64,000 nt of DNA, from the NCBI RefSeq assembly GCF_028307215.1, contig NZ_JAQMHV010000005.1, forward strand, positions 1 through 64,000, given 5' to 3'. This stretch comes from Falsirhodobacter sp. 20TX0035 (GTDB lineage Bacteria > Pseudomonadota > Alphaproteobacteria > Rhodobacterales > Rhodobacteraceae). Under the pieces are notes generated by a model. That model was not told where the DNA came from and searched no databases. It saw only the letters and a list, made by a program, of their open reading frames with translations. The translations under genes and the position numbers were made by a program. How positions within the stretch are numbered: position 1 is the first letter of the stretch; every line of letters starts with the position of its first letter. This document shows positions 36,806 to 46,655 of the stretch, piece after piece.

Positions 36806-38293
36806 TCAACCAAGACGCCCGGTCAGGCGGTCATGGAAGGCGGCGCTGCGGGCGTCCAGCCCCTCGAACGCGACTTCGGTTCCGTGATCGGCGTAGCGCG
36901 TGCGCACCGAATCCAGCGCCGCCACGGTGGAGGCGTCCCAGATCTGCGCCCGGCTCAGGTCGATGGTGACGCGGGCCGGATCCTCGGCATAGCGGAACTG
37001 CTCGAACAGGTCGTTGGAGGAGCCGAAGAACAGCGGTCCCTCCACCTCGTACCGCGCGCCGTCGGACAGGCGCCGCACGTCGATCACATGGGCCACGCGG
37101 CGGGCAAAGAACATCACCGCCAGAACCACGCCGCCGATGACGCCGATGGCAAGGTTGTGCGTGACCACCGTCAGCACCACCGTGGCCGCCATGACCAGCG
37201 TTTCGGGCAGCGGCATCAGGCGCAACGTGCCGGGCCGGACGGAATGCCAGTCCATCGTCTGCACGGCCACCACCATCATCACACCCGCCAGCGCCACCAT
37301 CGGAATGCGCGCCATCACGGCCGACAGCCCCGTGACCAGCAGCAGAAGCACCAGCCCCGCGACGATCGTGGACACGCGGCTGCGCCCGCCCCCAATCTTC
37401 ACGTTCACGACCGTCTGGCCGATCATCGCGCAGCCCGCGATCCCGCCATAGAACCCGGCCGCGATGTTGCCCACGCCCAGCGCCCAGGATTCCTGCCCCT
37501 TGTGGGACCGGGTGTCCGTGATCTCGTCCACCAGCTTGGCGGTCAGCAGGGATTCCAGCAGGCCCACGAAGGCGACCGAAAGGGCCGGCGCCCAGATGAT
37601 CGCCAGCGTGTCCATCGTCAGGGGCACGGTCAGCTGGGTCAGACCGGGAAGGCCGGGGGCCATCTCCCCCTCTCCGCCCACATTGGGGACGTCGATGCCC
37701 GCGAACACGGCGATGGCCGTGACCAGCACAATGGCCACAAGGGCCGAAGGCACGGCGGTGGTGAGGCGCGGCAGCACCAGCACGATCGCCAGCGTCAGCG
37801 CCAGCATGGCATAGACGGCGGGCGATCCGCCCAGCACATGCGGCACCTGCGCCATGAAGATCAGGATGCCCAGCGCGTTCACAAAGCCGATCATCACCGA
37901 CCGGGGGATGAAGCGCATCAGCCGCGCCAGCCCCGCCAGCCCGAAGGCGATCTGGATCGCCCCGGCCAGCAGGACCGTGGGCAGGATGTAGCCCACGCCA
38001 TACCGGTGCACCATCGGCCCGATCACCAGCGCGATGGATCCGGCGGCGGCCGTGACCATGGCCGGACGCCCGCCGATCACCGAAAGGATCAGGCACATCA
38101 CCACTGACGCGACCAGCGCCGTCTTCGGGTCCACGCCCGAGATGAACGAGAAGGAGATCACCTCGGGCACAAGGGCCAGCGCGGTGACGATGCCCGCCAG
38201 CGTTTCCCGTGTCAGGGCGGCGGGCGAGCGGAGGACGGACATCGCCGAGGGCGAGTCCTGGCCCCGGTGAGGGGCGGTTGCGGATTGTGTCAT
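36806..38293 (-). CDS. SulP family anion permease with STAS domain
   Basis: A 495-residue inner-membrane transporter of the SulP (SLC26-like) family, which moves sulfate, bicarbonate or other anions. The transmembrane core begins with LAGIVTALALVPEVISFSFISGVDP, with several helices to about residue 390, including GNIAAGFYGGIAGCAMIGQT. A C-terminal STAS domain follows, with VEGPLFFGSSNDLFEQF and IDLSRAQIWDASTVAALD. I chose the ATG at 38293. Substrate cannot be told from sequence; bicarbonate and sulfate are both possible. It is divergent from the RND efflux operon, separated by about 205 bases. Confidence 0.93.
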   Translation of the reverse strand: MTQSATAPHRGQDSPSAMSVLRSPAALTRETLAGIVTALALVPEVISFSFISGVDPKTALVASVVMCLILSVIGGRPAMVTAAAGSIALVIGPMVHRYGVGYILPTVLLAGAIQIAFGLAGLARLMRFIPRSVMIGFVNALGILIFMAQVPHVLGGSPAVYAMLALTLAIVLVLPRLTTAVPSALVAIVLVTAIAVFAGIDVPNVGGEGEMAPGLPGLTQLTVPLTMDTLAIIWAPALSVAFVGLLESLLTAKLVDEITDTRSHKGQESWALGVGNIAAGFYGGIAGCAMIGQTVVNVKIGGGRSRVSTIVAGLVLLLLVTGLSAVMARIPMVALAGVMMVVAVQTMDWHSVRPGTLRLMPLPETLVMAATVVLTVVTHNLAIGVIGGVVLAVMFFARRVAHVIDVRRLSDGARYEVEGPLFFGSSNDLFEQFRYAEDPARVTIDLSRAQIWDASTVAALDSVRTRYADHGTEVAFEGLDARSAAFHDRLTGRLG

Positions 38294-38498
38294 GGGTCTT
38301 TCGGATCCTCTACGACAATGGTCCGGTCTGCCCTTGCGAGGGGTCGGCGTTCCTGCGACCATCGACCGGATGGGCCGCCGCACATGGGGGAAGGCGTCGA
38401 TCACGCAGATGCGATGAAATGTCATGCCTGCGAAGCGACGGAAAATTCTGTATCAAACGTATGGTTCTGGGAGGGACCATCAATCGGGAACACGACAC

Positions 38499-39653
38499 AT
38501 GACCGCACACCCACGCATCCGCGCAGGCATTCTGGCGATGGCCGGTGTTCTGATGGCCCTTCCGGCGGCCGCCCAAAGCCCCGCCGCGCCGGCCGCGCTT
38601 CCGGTGGGTGTGGTCACCCTTCATCGTGAGGCGGTCCCCGTTACCGTTCCGCTGACCGGTCAGGCCGCAGCCCGAAGCGAGGCGGAAATCCGTCCGCTGG
38701 TGGACGGAATCGTCACCGACATCCTTTATCAGCCGGGGGGCGAAGTAAAGGTGGGCGCACCGCTGTTCCGGATCGACCCCCGCAGCTATCAGGCCGAACT
38801 GGATTCGGCCCGGGCCGATCTGGAAAGCGCCGAGGCCGCCCTTCCCGCCGCAGAGGCCACCGTGAAACGCTACGAAGGGCTGGTCGGCACCGGCGTCACG
38901 CAGGCCGACCTGGACACCGCCCGCGCGCAGCTTCTGCAGGACCAGGCCGCCGTCAGCCGGGCCGGGGCCGCGGTGGACACCGCCCAGATCAACCTGGACC
39001 GCACCACGATCACCAGCCCGATCGACGGGGTGGCGGGCATTCCCGAAGCCTCGGTCGGCGATCTGGTCACCTCGGGGCAAAGCGACGGGCTGACCACGGT
39101 GACGACGCTGAACCCGATCTATGTGGACCTTTCGGCCGCCAGTTCGCAGATGCTTCAGGCGCGCACCCGCATCGCCAACGGCGACATGGATCCCGGGGAT
39201 GAACTCCACATCTCCATCCGGCTGGAGAACGGAGAGGTGTATGACGGCACGGGCACCGTGGTCGCCATCTCCTCCACCGTGTCAACCACCACGGGCACGA
39301 TCCGCATCCGGGTCGAGTTCGACAACCCCGAACGCCTGATCCTGCCGGGCATGTTCGTGCGTGCCTCGGTCACGCTGGGTACGGCGGACGCGTTCCTGAT
39401 CCCGCAACTGGCCGCCAGTCTGGAACCCGACGGCACGATCAGCGTCTGGACCGTGGACGCCGAAGGCAAGGCCGCGCAGGTCAACGTCACCCCCGTGGGC
39501 AGCAGCGACAACGCCTGGATCGTGACGCAAGGGCTGGGCGACGCGCCGCAGGTCATCGTCGACAATCTTGAGGCCGTGTCCGAAGGCGCCGCCGTCACCC
39601 CGGTCGCGGTGCAGGTTTCGCCGACGGGCATCGTCGAGGCTGCGGCGAACTGA
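38499..39653 (+). CDS. RND efflux periplasmic adaptor subunit
   Basis: Membrane fusion protein that joins the RND pump to the outer-membrane channel. The 384-residue product has a cleavable signal peptide (to about ALPAAAQ; no lipobox cysteine), a lipoyl/barrel-sandwich hairpin (EIRPLVDGIVTDILYQPGGEVKVG and TTITSPIDGVAGI), a helical coiled coil (AELDSARADLESAEAALPAA), and a beta-barrel ending (ERLILPGMFVRASVTLG). The ATG at 38499 was chosen as the start of the signal peptide. Its TGA overlaps the ATG of the pump gene (TGATG at 39651-39655). Confidence 0.95.
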   Translation: MTAHPRIRAGILAMAGVLMALPAAAQSPAAPAALPVGVVTLHREAVPVTVPLTGQAAARSEAEIRPLVDGIVTDILYQPGGEVKVGAPLFRIDPRSYQAELDSARADLESAEAALPAAEATVKRYEGLVGTGVTQADLDTARAQLLQDQAAVSRAGAAVDTAQINLDRTTITSPIDGVAGIPEASVGDLVTSGQSDGLTTVTTLNPIYVDLSAASSQMLQARTRIANGDMDPGDELHISIRLENGEVYDGTGTVVAISSTVSTTTGTIRIRVEFDNPERLILPGMFVRASVTLGTADAFLIPQLAASLEPDGTISVWTVDAEGKAAQVNVTPVGSSDNAWIVTQGLGDAPQVIVDNLEAVSEGAAVTPVAVQVSPTGIVEAAAN

Positions 39654-42600
39654 TGGCCCGTTTCTTCATCCACCGCCCCGTCTTCGCCTGGGTCCTTGCC
39701 ATCGTCACGATGCTCTTCGGCGTGCTGGGCATCACCACCCTGCCCATCTCGCAATACCCCGAGGTGTCGCCGCCCACGGTCCGCATCTCGGCCAGCTACA
39801 CCGGCGCCTCGGCGGAAGCCGTGCAGAACTCCGTCACCACGGTGATCGAGGATGCGATGACCGGCCTCGACGGGCTGCTCTACATGACGTCCTCCTCGTC
39901 CCGGGGCAGTTCGTCGATCTCGATGGTGTTCGACGACAGCGTGGACGGCGACGACGCGCAGGTGGACGTGCAGAACCAGTTACAAAGGGTCACGAGCCAG
40001 CTGCCCGACGTGGTGCAGGACGACGGCGTGACGGTGCGGCAGTCCACCACCTCCATCCTGATGGTGGGGGCGCTGGTGTCCAAGGACAACACCTACAACG
40101 CCCTGCAACTGGCCGACATGCTGGAGGAAACCGTCGAAGGCCCCGTCCAGCGCACGCCGGGCGTGTCGGGCATCAACGTCTTCGGATCGGGCTATGCCAT
40201 GCGGGTCTGGCTGGATCCCGACCGGCTGGTGCAGTATCAGCTGACCCCCGCCGACGTGACAAGCGCCGTGTCGGCGCAGAACAGCACTGTCACAGTCGGT
40301 TCGCTGGGCGATCAGCCGGTGACGGACGGCCAGCAGTTCACGGCCGAGATCACGGCCCAAAGCCAGCTGACCACGGTGGACGAATTCCGCAACATCCTGC
40401 TGAAGACGGGCGAGGACGGGGCCGCCGTCCGCCTCGGCGACGTCGCGCGGGTGGAGATCGGGCAAGAGGAATACGGCCGCGACAGCCGCTTTTCCGGGTC
40501 CAACGCGGCGGGCTTCGGCGTGAACTTGCAGACGGGGGCCAACGCGGTGGAAACCGCCGCCGCCGTCCGCGCCACCCTGTCGGGCCTTGCCAACGCCTTC
40601 CCCGAAGGCGTGGAGATCGCCTATGCCTACGACACCTCCCCCTTCGTGGAACTGTCGATCGAGAAGGTGGAGCACACGCTGATCGAGGCCATCGTGCTGG
40701 TCTTCATCGTGATGTTCGTCTTCCTGCAGAACTGGCGCGCCACGCTGATCCCGACGCTGGCCGTGCCAGTCGTGCTGCTGGGCACCTTCGGCGTGCTGTC
40801 GGTGCTGGGCTATTCCATCAACACGCTGACCATGTTCGCCATGGTGCTGGCCATCGGCCTTCTGGTGGACGACGCCATCGTCGTGGTGGAAAACGTCGAA
40901 CGCGTGATGGAGGAGGAAGGCCTGGGTCCCGTGGAGGCGACGGAGAAATCCATGGGCCAGATCACCAGCGCCCTTGTGGGCATCGGCCTGATCCTGTCAG
41001 TGGTGTTCCTGCCCATGGCCTTCTTCGGCGGATCGACGGGCATCATCTACCGCCAGTTCTCCATCACCATCATCTCGGCCATGGTGCTGTCGGTGCTGGT
41101 GGCGCTGATCCTGACGCCGGCCCTGTGCGCCACGCTGCTGCGCCCGCGCAACCACGGGGGCGGCATCGCGCCCGCGCGCTGGTTCAACCGCAACTTCGAC
41201 CGCTTCACCAACGGCTATGTCGGCATCAACCGCCGGCTGGTCCAGCGGCCGTTCCTGGCGCTGACGGCGCTTCTGGCGGTGGTCGGTCTCATCTGGGCGA
41301 TGTTCACGGCCATCCCGTCCTCGTTCCTGCCGCAAGAGGATCAGGGATCGCTGATGGTGCGCGTGCGCCTGCCCGAAGGATCCACCAGCGCCCAGACCAA
41401 CGCCGTCATGAAAACGGCCGAGGAGTATCTTCTGACAAGGGAAAGCGACGCCATCGCCAGCACCTTCGCGGCCCTTGGTTTCGGCTTTGGCGGCAATTCG
41501 CAGAACAGCGGGATGATCTTCGTCAAGATGAAGGAGTTCGACCTGCGCGCCGACGACCCGGATCTGGGCGCCGCCGCCGTGGCGCAGCGGGCGAACGCGC
41601 ATTTCCGCAAGACGCTGCGCGGCGGCACGGTGCAGGTCATGCAGCCCCCGGCGATCCCCGGCATGGGCAACAGCGCGGGTTTCTCGATGTACATGATCGA
41701 CCAGTCCGGCCAAGGGCTGGAAGCGATGCGCGAGGCGGCGAACCAGCTTGTCGCCAACGCCGAGGCCGACGGCCAGATCACCAACCTTCAGGGGAACGAG
41801 GATCAGGACAGGACCGCCATGCGCATCGACATCGACGCGCAGAAGGCCGAAAGCTACGGCCTGACGCTGACGGACGTGAACGCCATGCTCAGCGTCATCT
41901 TCTCGGGGCGCAACGTCAACGACTTTGAGATGGGGAGCGAGCTGCGCCCCGTGATCGTGCAGGGCGACGCCCCGTTCCGGATGCAGCCCGACGACGTGCA
42001 GCGCTGGCACGCCCGCAATTCGGACGGAGAGATGGTGCCTTTCCCGTCCTTCGCCTCGCTCAGCTGGGAAACGGTTCCGGCCTCGCTCAGCCGCTATGGC
42101 GGAAGTGCCGCGATCCAGATTCAGGGCGCGCCGGTGGAAGGCGTGTCGTCCGGCGAGGCGATGACCCGGATGGAGGAGCTGGTGGCCGAACTTCCCGGCG
42201 GCTACGGATCCGCCTGGACGGGGCTGTCCTATCAGGAACGGCTGTCGGGGTCGCAGGCCCCGTTCCTTTACGCCATTTCCGTGCTGGTGGTGTTCCTGTG
42301 CCTGGCGGCGCTGTACGAAAGCTGGACGATCCCGATCTCGGTCATGCTGGCGGTTCCGGTGGGGGTGCTGGGCGCGCTGGGGGCGGCGCTGCTGATGGGG
42401 CAATCGAACGACGTCTATTTCAAGGTGGGCCTGCTGACGACCATCGGCCTTGCGGCCAAGAACGCGATCCTGATCGTGGAATTTGCGGTCGACCTGCAAA
42501 AGCAGGGCAAGGGGCTGATCGAGGCGACGCTGGAAGCCGCCCGCCAGCGCCTGCGCCCGATCCTCATGACCTCGTTCGCGTTCATCCTGGGGGTTGTGCC

Positions 42601-42760
42601 CTTGGCCACCGCCACCGGGGCCGGCGCCGGGGCGCAGAACGCCATCGGCATCGGGGTGCTGGGGGGCATGACCTCGGCCACCGCATTGGGCATCTTCCTG
42701 GTGCCCGCCTTCTTTGTCGGCGTCCGCCGACTGTTTTCGCGCAAAGGAAAGACTCAATGA
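39653..42760 (+). CDS. RND multidrug efflux transporter, HAE-1 (AcrB/MexB-like)
   Basis: A 1035-residue inner-membrane proton/drug antiporter with the duplicated RND layout. The N-terminus ARFFIHRPVFAWVLAIVTM is typical of AcrB. The proton relay aspartates lie in GLLVDDAIVVVENVERVM, with a matching lysine region (AAKNAILIVEFAVDLQKQ) in the second half. Large periplasmic loops occur after TM1 and TM7. Substrates cannot be deduced. The gene overlaps the adaptor by one base at its start and the outer-membrane factor by four at its end (ATGA at 42757-42760), so the three proteins are translationally coupled. No repressor gene is adjacent. Confidence 0.97.
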   Translation: MARFFIHRPVFAWVLAIVTMLFGVLGITTLPISQYPEVSPPTVRISASYTGASAEAVQNSVTTVIEDAMTGLDGLLYMTSSSSRGSSSISMVFDDSVDGDDAQVDVQNQLQRVTSQLPDVVQDDGVTVRQSTTSILMVGALVSKDNTYNALQLADMLEETVEGPVQRTPGVSGINVFGSGYAMRVWLDPDRLVQYQLTPADVTSAVSAQNSTVTVGSLGDQPVTDGQQFTAEITAQSQLTTVDEFRNILLKTGEDGAAVRLGDVARVEIGQEEYGRDSRFSGSNAAGFGVNLQTGANAVETAAAVRATLSGLANAFPEGVEIAYAYDTSPFVELSIEKVEHTLIEAIVLVFIVMFVFLQNWRATLIPTLAVPVVLLGTFGVLSVLGYSINTLTMFAMVLAIGLLVDDAIVVVENVERVMEEEGLGPVEATEKSMGQITSALVGIGLILSVVFLPMAFFGGSTGIIYRQFSITIISAMVLSVLVALILTPALCATLLRPRNHGGGIAPARWFNRNFDRFTNGYVGINRRLVQRPFLALTALLAVVGLIWAMFTAIPSSFLPQEDQGSLMVRVRLPEGSTSAQTNAVMKTAEEYLLTRESDAIASTFAALGFGFGGNSQNSGMIFVKMKEFDLRADDPDLGAAAVAQRANAHFRKTLRGGTVQVMQPPAIPGMGNSAGFSMYMIDQSGQGLEAMREAANQLVANAEADGQITNLQGNEDQDRTAMRIDIDAQKAESYGLTLTDVNAMLSVIFSGRNVNDFEMGSELRPVIVQGDAPFRMQPDDVQRWHARNSDGEMVPFPSFASLSWETVPASLSRYGGSAAIQIQGAPVEGVSSGEAMTRMEELVAELPGGYGSAWTGLSYQERLSGSQAPFLYAISVLVVFLCLAALYESWTIPISVMLAVPVGVLGALGAALLMGQSNDVYFKVGLLTTIGLAAKNAILIVEFAVDLQKQGKGLIEATLEAARQRLRPILMTSFAFILGVVPLATATGAGAGAQNAIGIGVLGGMTSATALGIFLVPAFFVGVRRLFSRKGKTQ

Positions 42761-44100
42761 CCCGTCCCCTTCTTGTCCTGCTGATGCTCTCCACGGCAGG
42801 CTGCGCGGTCGGGCCCGACTACAAGGCGCCGGAGATTCGTCTCGCTTCCACCTTCGCCGAAAGCAGCGCCGGCCCGATCGGCGAGGTGGCGTCGCGCCGC
42901 TGGTGGACCCGCTACAGCGATCCGGTGCTGAACGATCTTGTGGCGCGGGGGCTGGGGCAGAACCTGGATCTGGCCGCATCCAACGAACGCATCGCGGCGG
43001 CGAACGCGGCGCTGCGCCAGACCGGCCTGTCGGCCGCCGTGGACGGCAGCGCCACCTTCAGCAGCGATCGCAGCGGCAGCGATCTGCAACCCATTACCAC
43101 CCAGTCCGGCACCACGCTGAACGCGCAGTTCGTGATCGACCTGTTCGGCGGCGTGCGCCGGGCCCGTCAGGCGGCGCTGGCCAACCTGGGGGCGGCGCAG
43201 GCGGATGTGGGCGTGACGCGGCTGGCCTATCTCAGTTCCATCCTCGGGGCCTATATCGACGCGCGCTATTACCAGAACGCGCTGGAACTGACGCGCAAGA
43301 CCATCGCCAGCCGCCAGCGCACGCTGGAGATCACGCAGAACCAGCGCGCCTCGGGGGCCGCGACCGAGTTGGACGAGGTTCAGGTCCAGGCCCTTCTGGA
43401 CAGCGCCCGAGCCGACCTGCCGGGGCTGGAGGCGAACTTCCTCGCCAACGTCTATGCCATGGCCACGCTTCTGGCCGAACCCGCGCAGCCCTTGGTGGCG
43501 CGGATGCAGCGGGGTGCGCCCCAACCCTATCCGCGCGACACGGGCGGCATCGGCATTCCGGCCGATCTGGTCCGCAACCGGCCCGACGTGCGGCAGGCCG
43601 AACGGCAGTTCGCGCAGGCCGTGGCGCAGGTCGGGGTGGCCACGGCGCAGCTTTATCCGTCGGTCACGCTGTCCGGTTCCGTGTCCGAAGGGGGCAGCAA
43701 CGGGTGGAGCTTCGGGCCTTCGATCGCGCAGGCCATCCTGAACCAGCCGCAACTGCGCGCCGCACGGGAAGAGGCCGCGTCCGAGGCGCGCCAGTCCGAG
43801 ATCGCGTGGCGCCAAAGCGTGCTGGACGCGGTGGAGGATGTGCAATCGGCCAACAGCACCTTCCGCCGCGACGGACGGCGCGTGGCGCTGCTGAACCGGT
43901 CGGTGAATTCCTACCAGCGGGCGCTGGACCTGTCGCAGCAGAACTTCGAGGCCGGGGCCCTGTCGCTGCTGGATCTTCTGGACACGGACCGTTCGCTGGC
44001 CTCGGCGCGGCTCAGCCTCGCCTCGGCGCTGCGCGATCAGGCGGTGGACTGGGCCACGCTGCAGATCGCGCTGGGGGCCGGCGCCTATCCGGCCCTCTAG
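42757..44100 (+). CDS. Outer-membrane efflux lipoprotein, NodT/OprM-like
   Basis: A 447-residue TolC-type channel of the NodT/OprM subgroup. The lipoprotein signal ends in the lipobox LSTAGC, followed by VGPDYKAPE, the usual start of the mature protein in this group. Two homologous helical halves follow (for example LAASNERIAAANAALRQTGLSAA and LIRNRPDV-like DLVRNRPDVRQAERQFAQA), with beta-barrel strands such as YPSVTLSGSVSEGG. It completes the tripartite pump with the two upstream genes and ends two bases before the convergent 54-residue peptide gene. Confidence 0.95.
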   Translation: MTRPLLVLLMLSTAGCAVGPDYKAPEIRLASTFAESSAGPIGEVASRRWWTRYSDPVLNDLVARGLGQNLDLAASNERIAAANAALRQTGLSAAVDGSATFSSDRSGSDLQPITTQSGTTLNAQFVIDLFGGVRRARQAALANLGAAQADVGVTRLAYLSSILGAYIDARYYQNALELTRKTIASRQRTLEITQNQRASGAATELDEVQVQALLDSARADLPGLEANFLANVYAMATLLAEPAQPLVARMQRGAPQPYPRDTGGIGIPADLVRNRPDVRQAERQFAQAVAQVGVATAQLYPSVTLSGSVSEGGSNGWSFGPSIAQAILNQPQLRAAREEAASEARQSEIAWRQSVLDAVEDVQSANSTFRRDGRRVALLNRSVNSYQRALDLSQQNFEAGALSLLDLLDTDRSLASARLSLASALRDQAVDWATLQIALGAGAYPAL

Positions 44101-44101
44101 G

Positions 44102-44266
44102 TCACTTGGGCATCGCGCCGCAGAACCCGCCCGAGGTGGGCAGCCCCGACCCGAAGGCCAGCGCCGCGGGCGCCTTGTAGGGGTTGGGCGGGGCGCCCGT
44201 GGCGTCCAGCGCCACCACGCCTAGGATGAAGGCCAGCGCGAGGCCTGCCGTCAGGTGCCGCGTCAT
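44102..44266 (-). CDS. Small membrane peptide coupled to YeeE transporter
   Basis: A 54-residue product, too short for most gene callers. It begins at an ATG that overlaps the stop of the YeeE/YedE gene (ATGA at 44263-44266), which supports real translation. One hydrophobic helix (LTAGLALAFILGVVALDA) is followed by a Pro/Gly-rich tail ending in SGGFCGAMPK. With its single Cys near the C-terminus the peptide could place a thiol on the periplasmic side; orientation is inferred. I know no named family for it. As the last gene of a rhodanese-YeeE operon it may be a sulfur-carrying or assembly partner. Confidence 0.7.
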   Translation of the reverse strand: MTRHLTAGLALAFILGVVALDATGAPPNPYKAPAALAFGSGLPTSGGFCGAMPK

Positions 44267-45387
44267 GCCCGACCCTCCAGCCCCAGAAGCGGGCGCAGGC
44301 GGACGCCCACCAGACTGCCCGCGAAACCGGCCACGAACCACGCCCAGCCGTGCAGGCTGCCGGTGGAGATGCCGGAGAAGAACGCCCCCACGTTGCAGCC
44401 AAAGGCAAGCCGCGAGGAATAGCCGAGCAGCAGCCCCGCCACCACCGTCGCGATCCACGCGCGGGCCGGCAGCTTCGGCAAGGGCTGCGACAACCCGCCC
44501 CGCTTCCACGCAACGATCAGGAACGCCCCGCCGATGATCCCGAAATTGGTGAGCGAGGTGATGTCGGTCAGCACGCTTTGCCCCACGCGGGCGGCGTTGC
44601 CCGGGGCCGACCAGAAGGCCGAACCCGACAGGTCCGCGCCCAGCGCCGTCGCCCCCTTGGCCACCCACAGCCCCAAGCCGTAGACGACACCCCAGGGCTG
44701 CCCGGCCACGACAAGGTTCGCCAGCGCCAGCGCCGCCAGCAGCGCCGCCGCCACGATCAGCCGGGCCGGAATGCGCCGGGTTCCGGGGGCGGCGATGGCC
44801 AGCGCCACCACGGCCACAAGCGCCAGAAGGCCCAGCGTGACAGCAAGCCCCGTGGTCCCGTGCAGTACCAGGATCGGAAGCGATCCCAGATCCGTCCACC
44901 AGACAAGGTTCAGCGCCCCGAAGAAGCTGCCGATGCAGAAGAAGGGCAGCGCCAGCAGGCTGACGGGGTTGCCGCTGCCCGCGTTCACCAGCGTGCCCGA
45001 CCCGCAGCCCAGCACGATCTGCATGGCCGCGCCGAAGACGAAGGCCCCGCCCACCATGGCAAAGCCAATGGGCGCCTGCGCGCCCGAAAGTTCGGCGCCA
45101 TGCGTGCTCAGCATCGGGAAGGCCACGATCGCCACAAGGGCGATGGCCAGAAGCTGCGCCAGAAGGCCCGCAGGCTCCCTCCGCAGGATCATCGCCCGCC
45201 ACGGGCCGGCAAAGCCGAAGCGCAGGCCTTCCAGCACGAGGCCGATGCCAAGGCCGATCGCCAGCAACAGGCCATAGCGCACGCCCGCCGTTAGCGTCAC
45301 TGCCACGACGGCGCCCAGCGCACCCAGCACCAGAAGCCCCCGTTTCGCGCCCACCCCTGCGGGCGCCGCCGCCGTCATCGCCGTCAT
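44263..45387 (-). CDS. YeeE/YedE family sulfur transporter
   Basis: A 374-residue inner-membrane protein with about nine to ten helices of the YeeE/YedE (Sul_transp) family, which imports thiosulfate or handles other sulfur compounds. The two conserved cysteine motifs are present: VLGCGSGTLVNAGSGNP in the first half and AFGCNVGAFFSGISTGS in the second. In characterised YeeE, such cysteines line the path and relay thiosulfate. The ATG overlaps the stop of the upstream rhodanese gene, and its TGA overlaps the start of the 54-residue peptide. The usual YeeD/TusA-like cytoplasmic partner is absent here. Confidence 0.94.
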   Translation of the reverse strand: MTAMTAAAPAGVGAKRGLLVLGALGAVVAVTLTAGVRYGLLLAIGLGIGLVLEGLRFGFAGPWRAMILRREPAGLLAQLLAIALVAIVAFPMLSTHGAELSGAQAPIGFAMVGGAFVFGAAMQIVLGCGSGTLVNAGSGNPVSLLALPFFCIGSFFGALNLVWWTDLGSLPILVLHGTTGLAVTLGLLALVAVVALAIAAPGTRRIPARLIVAAALLAALALANLVVAGQPWGVVYGLGLWVAKGATALGADLSGSAFWSAPGNAARVGQSVLTDITSLTNFGIIGGAFLIVAWKRGGLSQPLPKLPARAWIATVVAGLLLGYSSRLAFGCNVGAFFSGISTGSLHGWAWFVAGFAGSLVGVRLRPLLGLEGRA

Positions 45388-46304
45388 CAGTTGCTACCCC
45401 TGATCTGACGCAGGAAGTTGTCCATCGCGCTGGGCACGTTGGCCATCTCACCTTCGCCATGGCTGTAGCCGACGATGGAGTCGGGATAGAGCTTCACATT
45501 CGGCAGGCCCGCCAGTTCCGACAGGGCGAACCATTCGGTGGCCGCCCAGTGGCCGGTGTTGCAGAAGGCCACGACCTCGGGCTGCTGGTCCAAGCCTAGC
45601 TTCGCCGCCACGGCCTTGGCGCTGCCCGCATCGCCCATGCGCGGCGTGCCGTCGAACCAGACGGAATGGGGCACGTTCTCGGCCCCCGGCAGGGTGCCCG
45701 GACGGTCGGCCGCGGGGTGCGACTGCTGCCCTTCGAAGAAGGCCGGCGGGCGGGCGTCGATCAGCGCGGCGGGCTTGTCGCCGGCCACAACCTCATCAAC
45801 CTCCCCTTCCGTGGCCAGCCACTGGTCCGAGAAGGTGATGTCCACGTCCGACGGCAGCGGGGTCACCGCCTCGGTCTGCACGGGAAGGCCCGCGTCGCGC
45901 CACGCGTTCATGCCGCCGTTCAGGATGGCCAGCTGGCTGACGCCCGAGGATTTGAGCGTCCAGTAGACCCGCGCCGCCGCGCCGAAATCGCTGTCATCCT
46001 TGCCCTGGTGCACCACCAGAACGGGCCGGTCCAGCGTCACGCCCAAGGATTGCAGGGTCGCTTCCAGCTCGTCTTCGGGGACCAGTTCGCCGGGGTTGGC
46101 GGCGGGGCCGCGGAACAGGGCGTAGGGCGCGGACACCGCGCCTTCGATGTGGCCCTTGTCATACCCCGTCTCGCGGATGTCGAGAATCAGGGGCGATCCC
46201 GATCCCGCGACCTCTCCGGGGGCAAGAAGCGGGCCGAAGGGTGCGGCGGACGCCACGGTGGCCCAGCCGGCGACGGCAAGGGCGGAAAGGAGAAACGTCT
46301 TCAT
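45387..46304 (-). CDS. Secreted two-domain rhodanese (sulfurtransferase)
   Basis: A 305-residue periplasmic protein with a signal peptide (KTFLLSALAVAGWATVASAA). It has two rhodanese domains. The first (about residues 30-135) has lost its catalytic cysteine (VVHQGKDDSDFGAA occupies the loop). The second (about residues 155-290) carries the active-site loop VAFCNTGHWAATEW with Cys as the persulfide carrier. Such proteins transfer sulfane sulfur from thiosulfate or mercaptopyruvate to acceptors; the actual donor and acceptor are unknown. It heads an operon with YeeE/YedE and a 54-residue peptide, all overlapping by one to four bases, so delivery of sulfur to the transporter is a natural inference. 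Confidence 0.93.
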   Translation of the reverse strand: MKTFLLSALAVAGWATVASAAPFGPLLAPGEVAGSGSPLILDIRETGYDKGHIEGAVSAPYALFRGPAANPGELVPEDELEATLQSLGVTLDRPVLVVHQGKDDSDFGAAARVYWTLKSSGVSQLAILNGGMNAWRDAGLPVQTEAVTPLPSDVDITFSDQWLATEGEVDEVVAGDKPAALIDARPPAFFEGQQSHPAADRPGTLPGAENVPHSVWFDGTPRMGDAGSAKAVAAKLGLDQQPEVVAFCNTGHWAATEWFALSELAGLPNVKLYPDSIVGYSHGEGEMANVPSAMDNFLRQIRGSN

Positions 46305-46552
46305 GTGGATGTCCCGTCTGGTGGGTTGCCCCTCATGTCATCTCTTTGCCGCCGGATCGCAAGGCCTGTCCGTTTGGGCGAAAAGGCCCCGCTGCGATGG
46401 ACGTTTTCCGCATAGGCAACGCGACCGAATGTTGGCCCCGCAAACGGGAAACCTGCGAACATCCTTCCGCTGAAGCGTCATTTTGTGAACTCGTGTTCCT
46501 TTTCACGATTTGTCTTGCAGGCCCATCGGCAACTGCATAGCTTTGCGTCGAA
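46305..46552. other. Divergent promoter region, rhodanese and thi operons
   Basis: This stretch of about 250 bases separates the minus-strand sulfur operon from the plus-strand thiamin operon and must hold both promoters. A possible plus-strand promoter is TTGTCT (46510-46515) and TGCATA (46534-46539), with an 18-base spacer and just upstream of the riboswitch; this is a weak match. No gene is supported here. Confidence 0.4.
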
Positions 46553-46644
46553 CGCTTGTTGGGGTGTCCCGTCACGGGGCTGAGAGGTGCTTGGCATCGA
46601 CCCATCGAACCTGATCCGGGTCATGCCGGCGGAGGGAACGAGTG
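46553..46644 (+). ncRNA. TPP riboswitch (THI element)
   Basis: Thiamin pyrophosphate-sensing aptamer upstream of thiD. The conserved core CTGAGA lies in CACGGGGCTGAGAGGTGC, and the second conserved arm reads GACCCATCGAACCTGATCCG, ending in GGCGGAGGGAACG. The terminal P1 helix pairs 46553-46560 with 46637-46644 (all Watson-Crick or G-U). It is the likely control of the whole thi operon: high TPP reduces expression. A hairpin and a direct repeat between it and thiD are described separately. Confidence 0.95.
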
Positions 46645-46655
46645 GACCATCGACA

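Follow-up and report, generated by a model that had tools for sequence, protein, structure and literature searches.

The window, a stretch of 64,000 nucleotides from Falsirhodobacter sp. 20TX0035, carries on its minus strand, from 46304 down to 44102, a three-gene unit that encodes, in this order, a rhodanese, a YeeE/YedE-family transporter (hereafter YeeE) and a peptide of 54 residues. The genes and their key codons are as follows.

45387..46304, minus strand: secreted two-domain rhodanese of 305 residues with a hydrophobic, secretion-type N-terminus; PF00581 in two stretches
45561..45563, minus strand: codon of rhodanese Cys248 in the motif CNTGHWA; invariant in 77/77 aligned rows
44263..45387, minus strand: YeeE/YedE-family transporter of 374 residues, two-Cys type; PF04143, E 9.5e-37
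45214..45216, minus strand: codon of YeeE Gly58, at the place of TsuA Cys22; Gly in 104/104 rows
45004..45006, minus strand: codon of YeeE Cys128, aligned with Cys91 of S. thermophila TsuA; 104/104 rows
44395..44397, minus strand: codon of YeeE Cys331, aligned with TsuA Cys293; 104/104 rows
44102..44266, minus strand: 54-residue peptide (the “arm”) with an N-terminal hydrophobic helix, Asp21 and a Pro/Gly-rich tail with one Cys; beside YeeE in 80/80 relatives
44204..44206, minus strand: codon of peptide Asp21, at the end of the hydrophobic helix; 80/80 aligned rows
44120..44122, minus strand: codon of peptide Cys49 in the tail (GGFCG); 80/80 aligned rows

All three reading frames are present at these positions and, as the initial annotation had described, are joined by overlaps of one base between the rhodanese and YeeE (45387) and of four bases between YeeE and the peptide (ATGA, 44263-44266). 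The unit does not appear to belong to a larger operon: besides the rhodanese, YeeE and antisense ORFs, no gene family occurs in more than 8 of 80 loci from close relatives, as counted by crude ORF calling (at least 90 residues) that short or antisense-masked genes could escape. A tie to the neighboring thiamine genes was considered and rejected, since it is not conserved by the same 80-locus count.

The surroundings of the unit are of several kinds. A TPP riboswitch (RF00059, 78.6 bits; window 46550-46654, plus strand) lies divergent from the rhodanese gene and ahead of the thiamine genes, which Pfam assigns to phosphomethylpyrimidine kinase, an FAD oxidoreductase, ThiG and thiamine monophosphate synthase. 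An apparent RND efflux set (window 38424-44100, plus strand) ends beside the peptide gene; its 1035-residue protein at 39653-42760 matches PF00873, and the two flanking genes were assigned by eye alone. A SulP-type sulfate permease with a STAS domain (PF00916, PF01740; window 36806-38425, minus strand) is found about 6 kb from the operon.

The rhodanese is a tandem protein with two PF00581 stretches in Pfam, and its catalytic Cys resides in the second domain. In fact, Cys248 in CNTGHWA is the sole Cys of the protein and the loop of the first domain is Cys-free, which bears out the earlier description of one live and one Cys-less domain. The gene stands directly upstream of YeeE in 80/80 close relatives. 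The catalytic loop reads CNTGHWA in 119/123 loci and CNTGWFA in one further locus (L208), and was not found in three fragments.

The transporter had initially been credited with both cysteine motifs and with a missing YeeD, its usual partner. YeeE exceeds the curated cut-off of PF04143 (127.6 bits versus 27) and is the one occurrence of this family in the Falsirhodobacter sp. 20TX0035 genome; its structural model (pLDDT 89.9) finds TsuA as the best PDB match (6leo, TM 0.67/0.75). C128 and C331 are indeed present and form the only invariant Cys columns in 104/104 rows (the window plus 103 loci, among which the window genome's own copy may be included). The third cysteine of TsuA, Cys22, is absent: Gly occupies its place in 104/104 rows. 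The same Gly is seen in 15/15 divergent members of the family sample described below (L166-L180), of which L166 carries a multi-Cys arm, and the residue is thus not tied to the presence of the peptide. In the YeeE—YeeD structure, as given in the part of the report cited here, Cys22 adjoins the YeeD cysteine (PMC11073785). YeeE also misses the TsuA equivalog cut-offs of NCBIfam, with 41.4 bits versus 400 (NF052577) and 26.2 versus 645 (NF041049).

No YeeD is encoded beside the operon, and PF01206 (TusA), which matches 11/14 control genomes, has no match in the window's genome. The absence of the partner is therefore upheld, but the picture of a loss is not: since the two-Cys subfamily has Gly at the Cys22 place with or without the peptide, an absent YeeD is to be expected, and we reject the view that YeeE is a TsuA that lost YeeD. 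Judged by its cysteine pattern, YeeE is a member of a broad two-Cys subfamily and not of the YeeD-pairing TsuA type. Because it belongs to this subfamily, thiosulfate is not the obvious cargo, and the cysteine pattern together with the rhodanese partner makes sulfane sulfur the more likely one.

Other two-Cys YeeE proteins are found in varied settings. At one locus (L169) the neighbors are SoxZ and a SoxY that ends in GGCAT, and at another (L171) a cytochrome c and a flavocytochrome c sulfide dehydrogenase. Five loci (L172, L174, L175, L179 and L180, with L172 below the cut-off) have a rhodanese-free YeeE followed directly by a DUF302 protein; these proteins have a secretion-type N-terminus and are perhaps another periplasmic partner. 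On a plasmid of Nostoc edaphicum (L233), a two-Cys YeeE lies beside O-acetylhomoserine aminocarboxypropyltransferase/cysteine synthase and metX, a sulfur assimilation setting.

The peptide itself matches no Pfam or NCBIfam model at E up to 1. It stands directly behind YeeE in the best 80 of at least 334 confirmed YeeE relatives (80/80), with the four-base overlap kept in 71/80, and its dN/dS has a median of 0.30 with no value above 1 (638 pairs among 41 same-length sequences, after 146 unusable pairs and 36 pairs with dS ≥2.5 were dropped). Consequently, the peptide is not a chance ORF. The initial annotation had placed its own refutation in a peptide that is not kept beside YeeE in relatives or whose Cys is not conserved; both the position and Cys49 are conserved. 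Seven residues are invariant in 80/80 aligned rows (the window plus 79 loci): Arg3, Asp21, Pro33, Gly39, Ser40, Gly46 and Cys49. Residue 48, just before the Cys, is Phe in 55 of the 80 rows and His in the other 25. The row left out of this alignment is that of L050, a MAG contig in which the peptide is frameshifted just ahead of the Cys motif; this sole case in 80 loci could be an assembly error. Five residues follow the last Cys in 67/103 peptides (L050 included), and four divergent peptides end three residues past it.

The first eight residues have a mean net charge of +1.7 and the tail one of -0.2, and the N-terminus is the more positive end in 87/103 peptides. By the positive-inside rule, the more positive flank of a membrane helix lies on the cytoplasmic side, so that a periplasmic tail is favored and Cys49 is probably exposed to the periplasm. 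A model of a read-through YeeE—peptide chain (pLDDT 60, pTM 0.37) is too poor to use for contact; in it, peptide residues 2-25 form a helix and the tail is modeled with low confidence. The same N-terminal stretch could be read as a cleaved signal peptide; the remaining 29 or so residues would then be secreted as a free peptide and act as a diffusible periplasmic thiol. Position 25 would suit cleavage, being Ser, Thr or Ala in 78/80 rows, and residues of this type are usual at signal peptidase sites. However, position 26 is Pro in 57/80 rows, and Pro just after the cleavage site hinders signal peptidase; moreover, invariant Arg3 and Asp21 would be unusual in a signal peptide. We regard such cleavage as improbable and retain a membrane-held peptide as the preferred reading.

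Since the 80 loci had been picked by YeeE similarity, genome samples were also taken. In an even sample of 246 genomes from the window's family, 34 match the peptide profile and 47 the YeeE query. The 33 genomes with a strong peptide match (E ≤3.8e-14) are the same 33 that have YeeE at E ≤1e-100, and no more than 66 bases separate the two genes; one of these genomes (G335) carries a second, divergent YeeE copy. The other 14 YeeE genomes have a YeeE of at most 47% identity and no match to the peptide profile. The remaining peptide match (G372/L185) has an E-value of 0.0036, an internal stop and no YeeE within the 6 kb around it; together with G049/L108 (E 9e-4) and matches of E ≥0.006, it was not scored as a peptide. 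Similarly, a scan of 72,556 plasmid records finds YeeE of at least 60% identity and the peptide in one and the same set of 8; the peptide is annotated as a hypothetical protein in 7 of them and unannotated in the eighth.

Beyond the family, the peptide occurs in 3/289 genomes of a class sample, one match being weak, and in 5/299 genomes of a phylum sample. Two of the latter lie outside the window's class, with YeeE of about 49% and peptides of about 38% identity. A further sample of the second class gave 2/232 genomes, one of them found before, and a genus search around G519 returned G519 alone. The unit is widespread in Rhodobacterales and related groups and extends into other proteobacterial classes. 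Within the family sample, SoxY is matched in 26/33 operon genomes versus 151/213 others (p 0.41); a link of the operon to the Sox pathway, which we had considered, is not seen.

To describe what follows YeeE in more distant loci, we use the word arm for any small ORF that comes directly after a two-Cys YeeE and encodes an N-terminal helix ending in Asp and then a Cys-bearing tail; the peptide of the window fits this definition. In total, 138 loci were scored for rhodanese and arm, and 4 were excluded by length rules (L086, L189, L219 and L227). Under the first criteria, an arm is found in 88/92 loci with a rhodanese, in 4/42 without one and in 9/233 control windows placed 600 and 900 bases further on. 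Under tightened criteria, which were fixed after these first results were known, the counts are 89/92, 1/42 and 0/233. Outside the 80 contig loci, an arm is found in 10/13 loci with a rhodanese versus 1/42 without. Fisher values on these counts ignore relatedness, and some species are counted more than once.

Of the three misses under the tightened criteria, one has no arm that we could see (L167). The other two have an arm by eye, with a polar tail in L208 and with a frame that extends to 230 residues in S. meliloti ABS7 (L193). We note that the corresponding frame has 124 residues in S. meliloti strain 2011 (L234), and that the two differ inside or just after the repeats. The sole arm without a rhodanese belongs to L197, whose YeeE has two internal stops. 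In a tree of 69 YeeE sequences, a single-Cys clade (14 rows) and a main multi-Cys clade (12 rows, including the armless L167) have SH-aLRT supports of 99 and 98, respectively, and neither clade includes the arms of L208 and L225. About four changes of the arm label are needed on this tree, two of them forced by well-supported branches, so that few independent events underlie the link between rhodanese and arm; an independent-pairs test on the same tree gave no significance, the independent changes being too few.

The arms of several relatives carry more than one Cys. There are four in S. meliloti 2011, S. medicae, L198 and L225, six in L166, seven in L228 and L219, eight in L199 and twenty-eight in L196. 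In the genus of L196, YeeE and the rhodanese are present in all 29 genomes examined, and an arm with 14-31 cysteines (median 24.5) was found by pattern in 22/29; when the other seven were read by eye, six had the arm, and in one the contig ends 70 bases past YeeE. These arms consist, in order, of a helix, an FDH, LDH or ADH motif, a Pro/Ala-rich linker and NPCAA-type repeats. Five other arms were tested against Pfam and NCBIfam, with none above the cut-off and one with weak sub-threshold matches. The helix, the Asp and the gene order are common to both kinds of arm, which suggests that single-Cys and multi-Cys arms are homologous. The multi-Cys arms are a striking protein type in themselves, and their presence in Sinorhizobium meliloti places one version in a genetic model. 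In L166, a DUF6969 protein (PF22308; 2344-3045, minus strand) follows the multi-Cys arm, and a sequence similar to it by eye follows the arm of L197.

Two other readings give the peptide a role other than carrying sulfur. Arg3 and Asp21 are invariant and lie in or next to the helix, which suggests specific packing, and the peptide co-occurs with a close YeeE in 33/33 genomes; both would suit a structural or gating subunit whose helix packs against YeeE through these residues and whose Cys49 blocks or locks the outer opening, for instance by a Cys49—Cys331 disulfide that closes it. Such a subunit, disulfide-locked or otherwise, seems unlikely to us, since it leaves unexplained both the tie to the rhodanese (89/92 versus 1/42) and the arms with 14-31 cysteines. 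These Cys-rich repeats would, in turn, suit soft metals, and an arm that binds these or selenium/tellurium species would make the unit one of detoxification, in line with weak matches of the rhodanese and YeeE to models of the selenite/tellurite protein ExtH and of selenium YedE/FdhT. However, these scores are far under the cut-offs (39.3 of 200 and 46.3 of 350), a single Cys is a poor chelator, and the 80-locus neighbor count given above shows no further gene family that accompanies the unit in more than 8 loci. We consider detoxification very improbable.

In sum, the unit is composed of three genes in a fixed order, with a rhodanese upstream linked to an arm downstream and with four invariant cysteines across it: rhodanese Cys248, peptide Cys49, YeeE Cys331 and YeeE Cys128. 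We consider it probable that these parts make up an import unit for sulfane (zero-valent) sulfur, with the peptide as carrier between the rhodanese and YeeE. The secreted rhodanese would take periplasmic sulfane sulfur onto Cys248 and hand it to Cys49 on the flexible peptide tail, which the N-terminal helix would tether beside YeeE. The tail would then offer the persulfide on Cys49 to YeeE Cys331, from where the sulfur would move inward via Cys128 to a cytoplasmic thiol as the presumed acceptor. The peptide would thereby serve YeeE as the GGCGG arm of SoxY serves the Sox system, and the arms of relatives, with 3-31 cysteines on a like tether, would be higher-capacity forms.

The route already suggested in the initial annotation, by which a membrane-held thiol passes a periplasmic persulfide on to YeeE, is consistent with the anatomy of the unit and with what the cited part of the YedE1E2 report describes (PMC10812762). 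We count in favor of sulfane import that other two-Cys YeeE proteins adjoin SoxY and SoxZ or flavocytochrome c sulfide dehydrogenase, and against it the absence of any SoxY match from the window's genome. In the cited part of the YedE1E2 report, zero-valent sulfur was not imported by those full-length YedE3 proteins that were tested (PMC10812762); as YeeE here is also full-length, this is a caution for sulfane sulfur as cargo. More tentatively, and with confidence just short of even, we propose that tethered thiol arms with 1 to about 30 cysteines (NPCAA-type in the repeats), loaded by dedicated CNTGHWA rhodaneses and feeding two-Cys YeeE transporters, form an undescribed class of carriers, in which the multi-Cys members may act as a persulfide brush on the outer face that captures and stores sulfane sulfur.

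The proposed unit shares parts with several known systems, each of which we describe from the portions of the reports cited. Similarly to the YeeE(TsuA)—YeeD(TsuB) thiosulfate uptake system (6leo, 8k1r; PMC11073785), it has the PF04143 fold, the first and second relay cysteines and, next to the transporter gene, a gene for a small Cys-bearing partner. In contrast to TsuA—TsuB, YeeE here is without Cys22 and without an adjacent YeeD, in a genome without a TusA-domain match, and the rhodanese belongs to the set. The partner differs as well, YeeD being a cytoplasmic protein of the TusA fold, whereas the one here is a membrane peptide with a probably periplasmic Cys.

YedE1E2 comes closer in its cysteines. 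According to the cited portion of its report, it has two conserved cysteines, both essential, and imports zero-valent sulfur without exporting it (PMC10812762). YeeE here, like YedE1E2/PmpAB, has two core cysteines only; it is one protein of 374 residues, whereas YedE1E2/PmpAB consists of two half-length proteins. The same portion of the report describes no arm for YedE1E2, and rhodaneses only as nearby genes in some genomes (PMC10812762). SoxT1 and SoxT2 are YeeE-like importers proposed to take sulfur from periplasmic donors, as would be the case here, and a one-helix protein of 56 residues, Hden_0678, adjoins soxT1A but is Cys-free (PMC11582611, in the part cited). Unlike YeeE here with its two cysteines, SoxT has three conserved cysteines and occurs with sox or shdr genes.

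The tail of the peptide most resembles the swinging arm of SoxY, whose C-terminal GGCGG holds a sulfur-binding Cys (PMC6067878, in the part cited): both have a Cys in a Gly-rich C-terminal tail, which in SoxY carries periplasmic sulfur (PMC6067878, PMC11237559). SoxY is a folded, soluble protein (PF13501) with the partner SoxZ, whereas the peptide is a bare membrane helix with a tail and does not match PF13501 in Pfam at E up to 1. The likeness can only be functional.

Within the open-access PMC literature, and as far as the cited portions go (PMC11582611, PMC11073785, PMC10812762, PMC11237559, PMC6067878, PMC13047784), neither the peptide nor the multi-Cys arms have been described; the closest described protein is the above-mentioned Hden_0678 (PMC11582611). 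Set beside these systems, the peptide appears to be a hitherto undescribed carrier that passes sulfur on to a transporter. Sulfur import into the cytoplasm is poorly understood, as the cited part of the SoxT report puts it (PMC11582611), and if the peptide is indeed a dedicated periplasmic donor encoded with its transporter, the outer step of YeeE-type import could be tested with a set of just three small genes.
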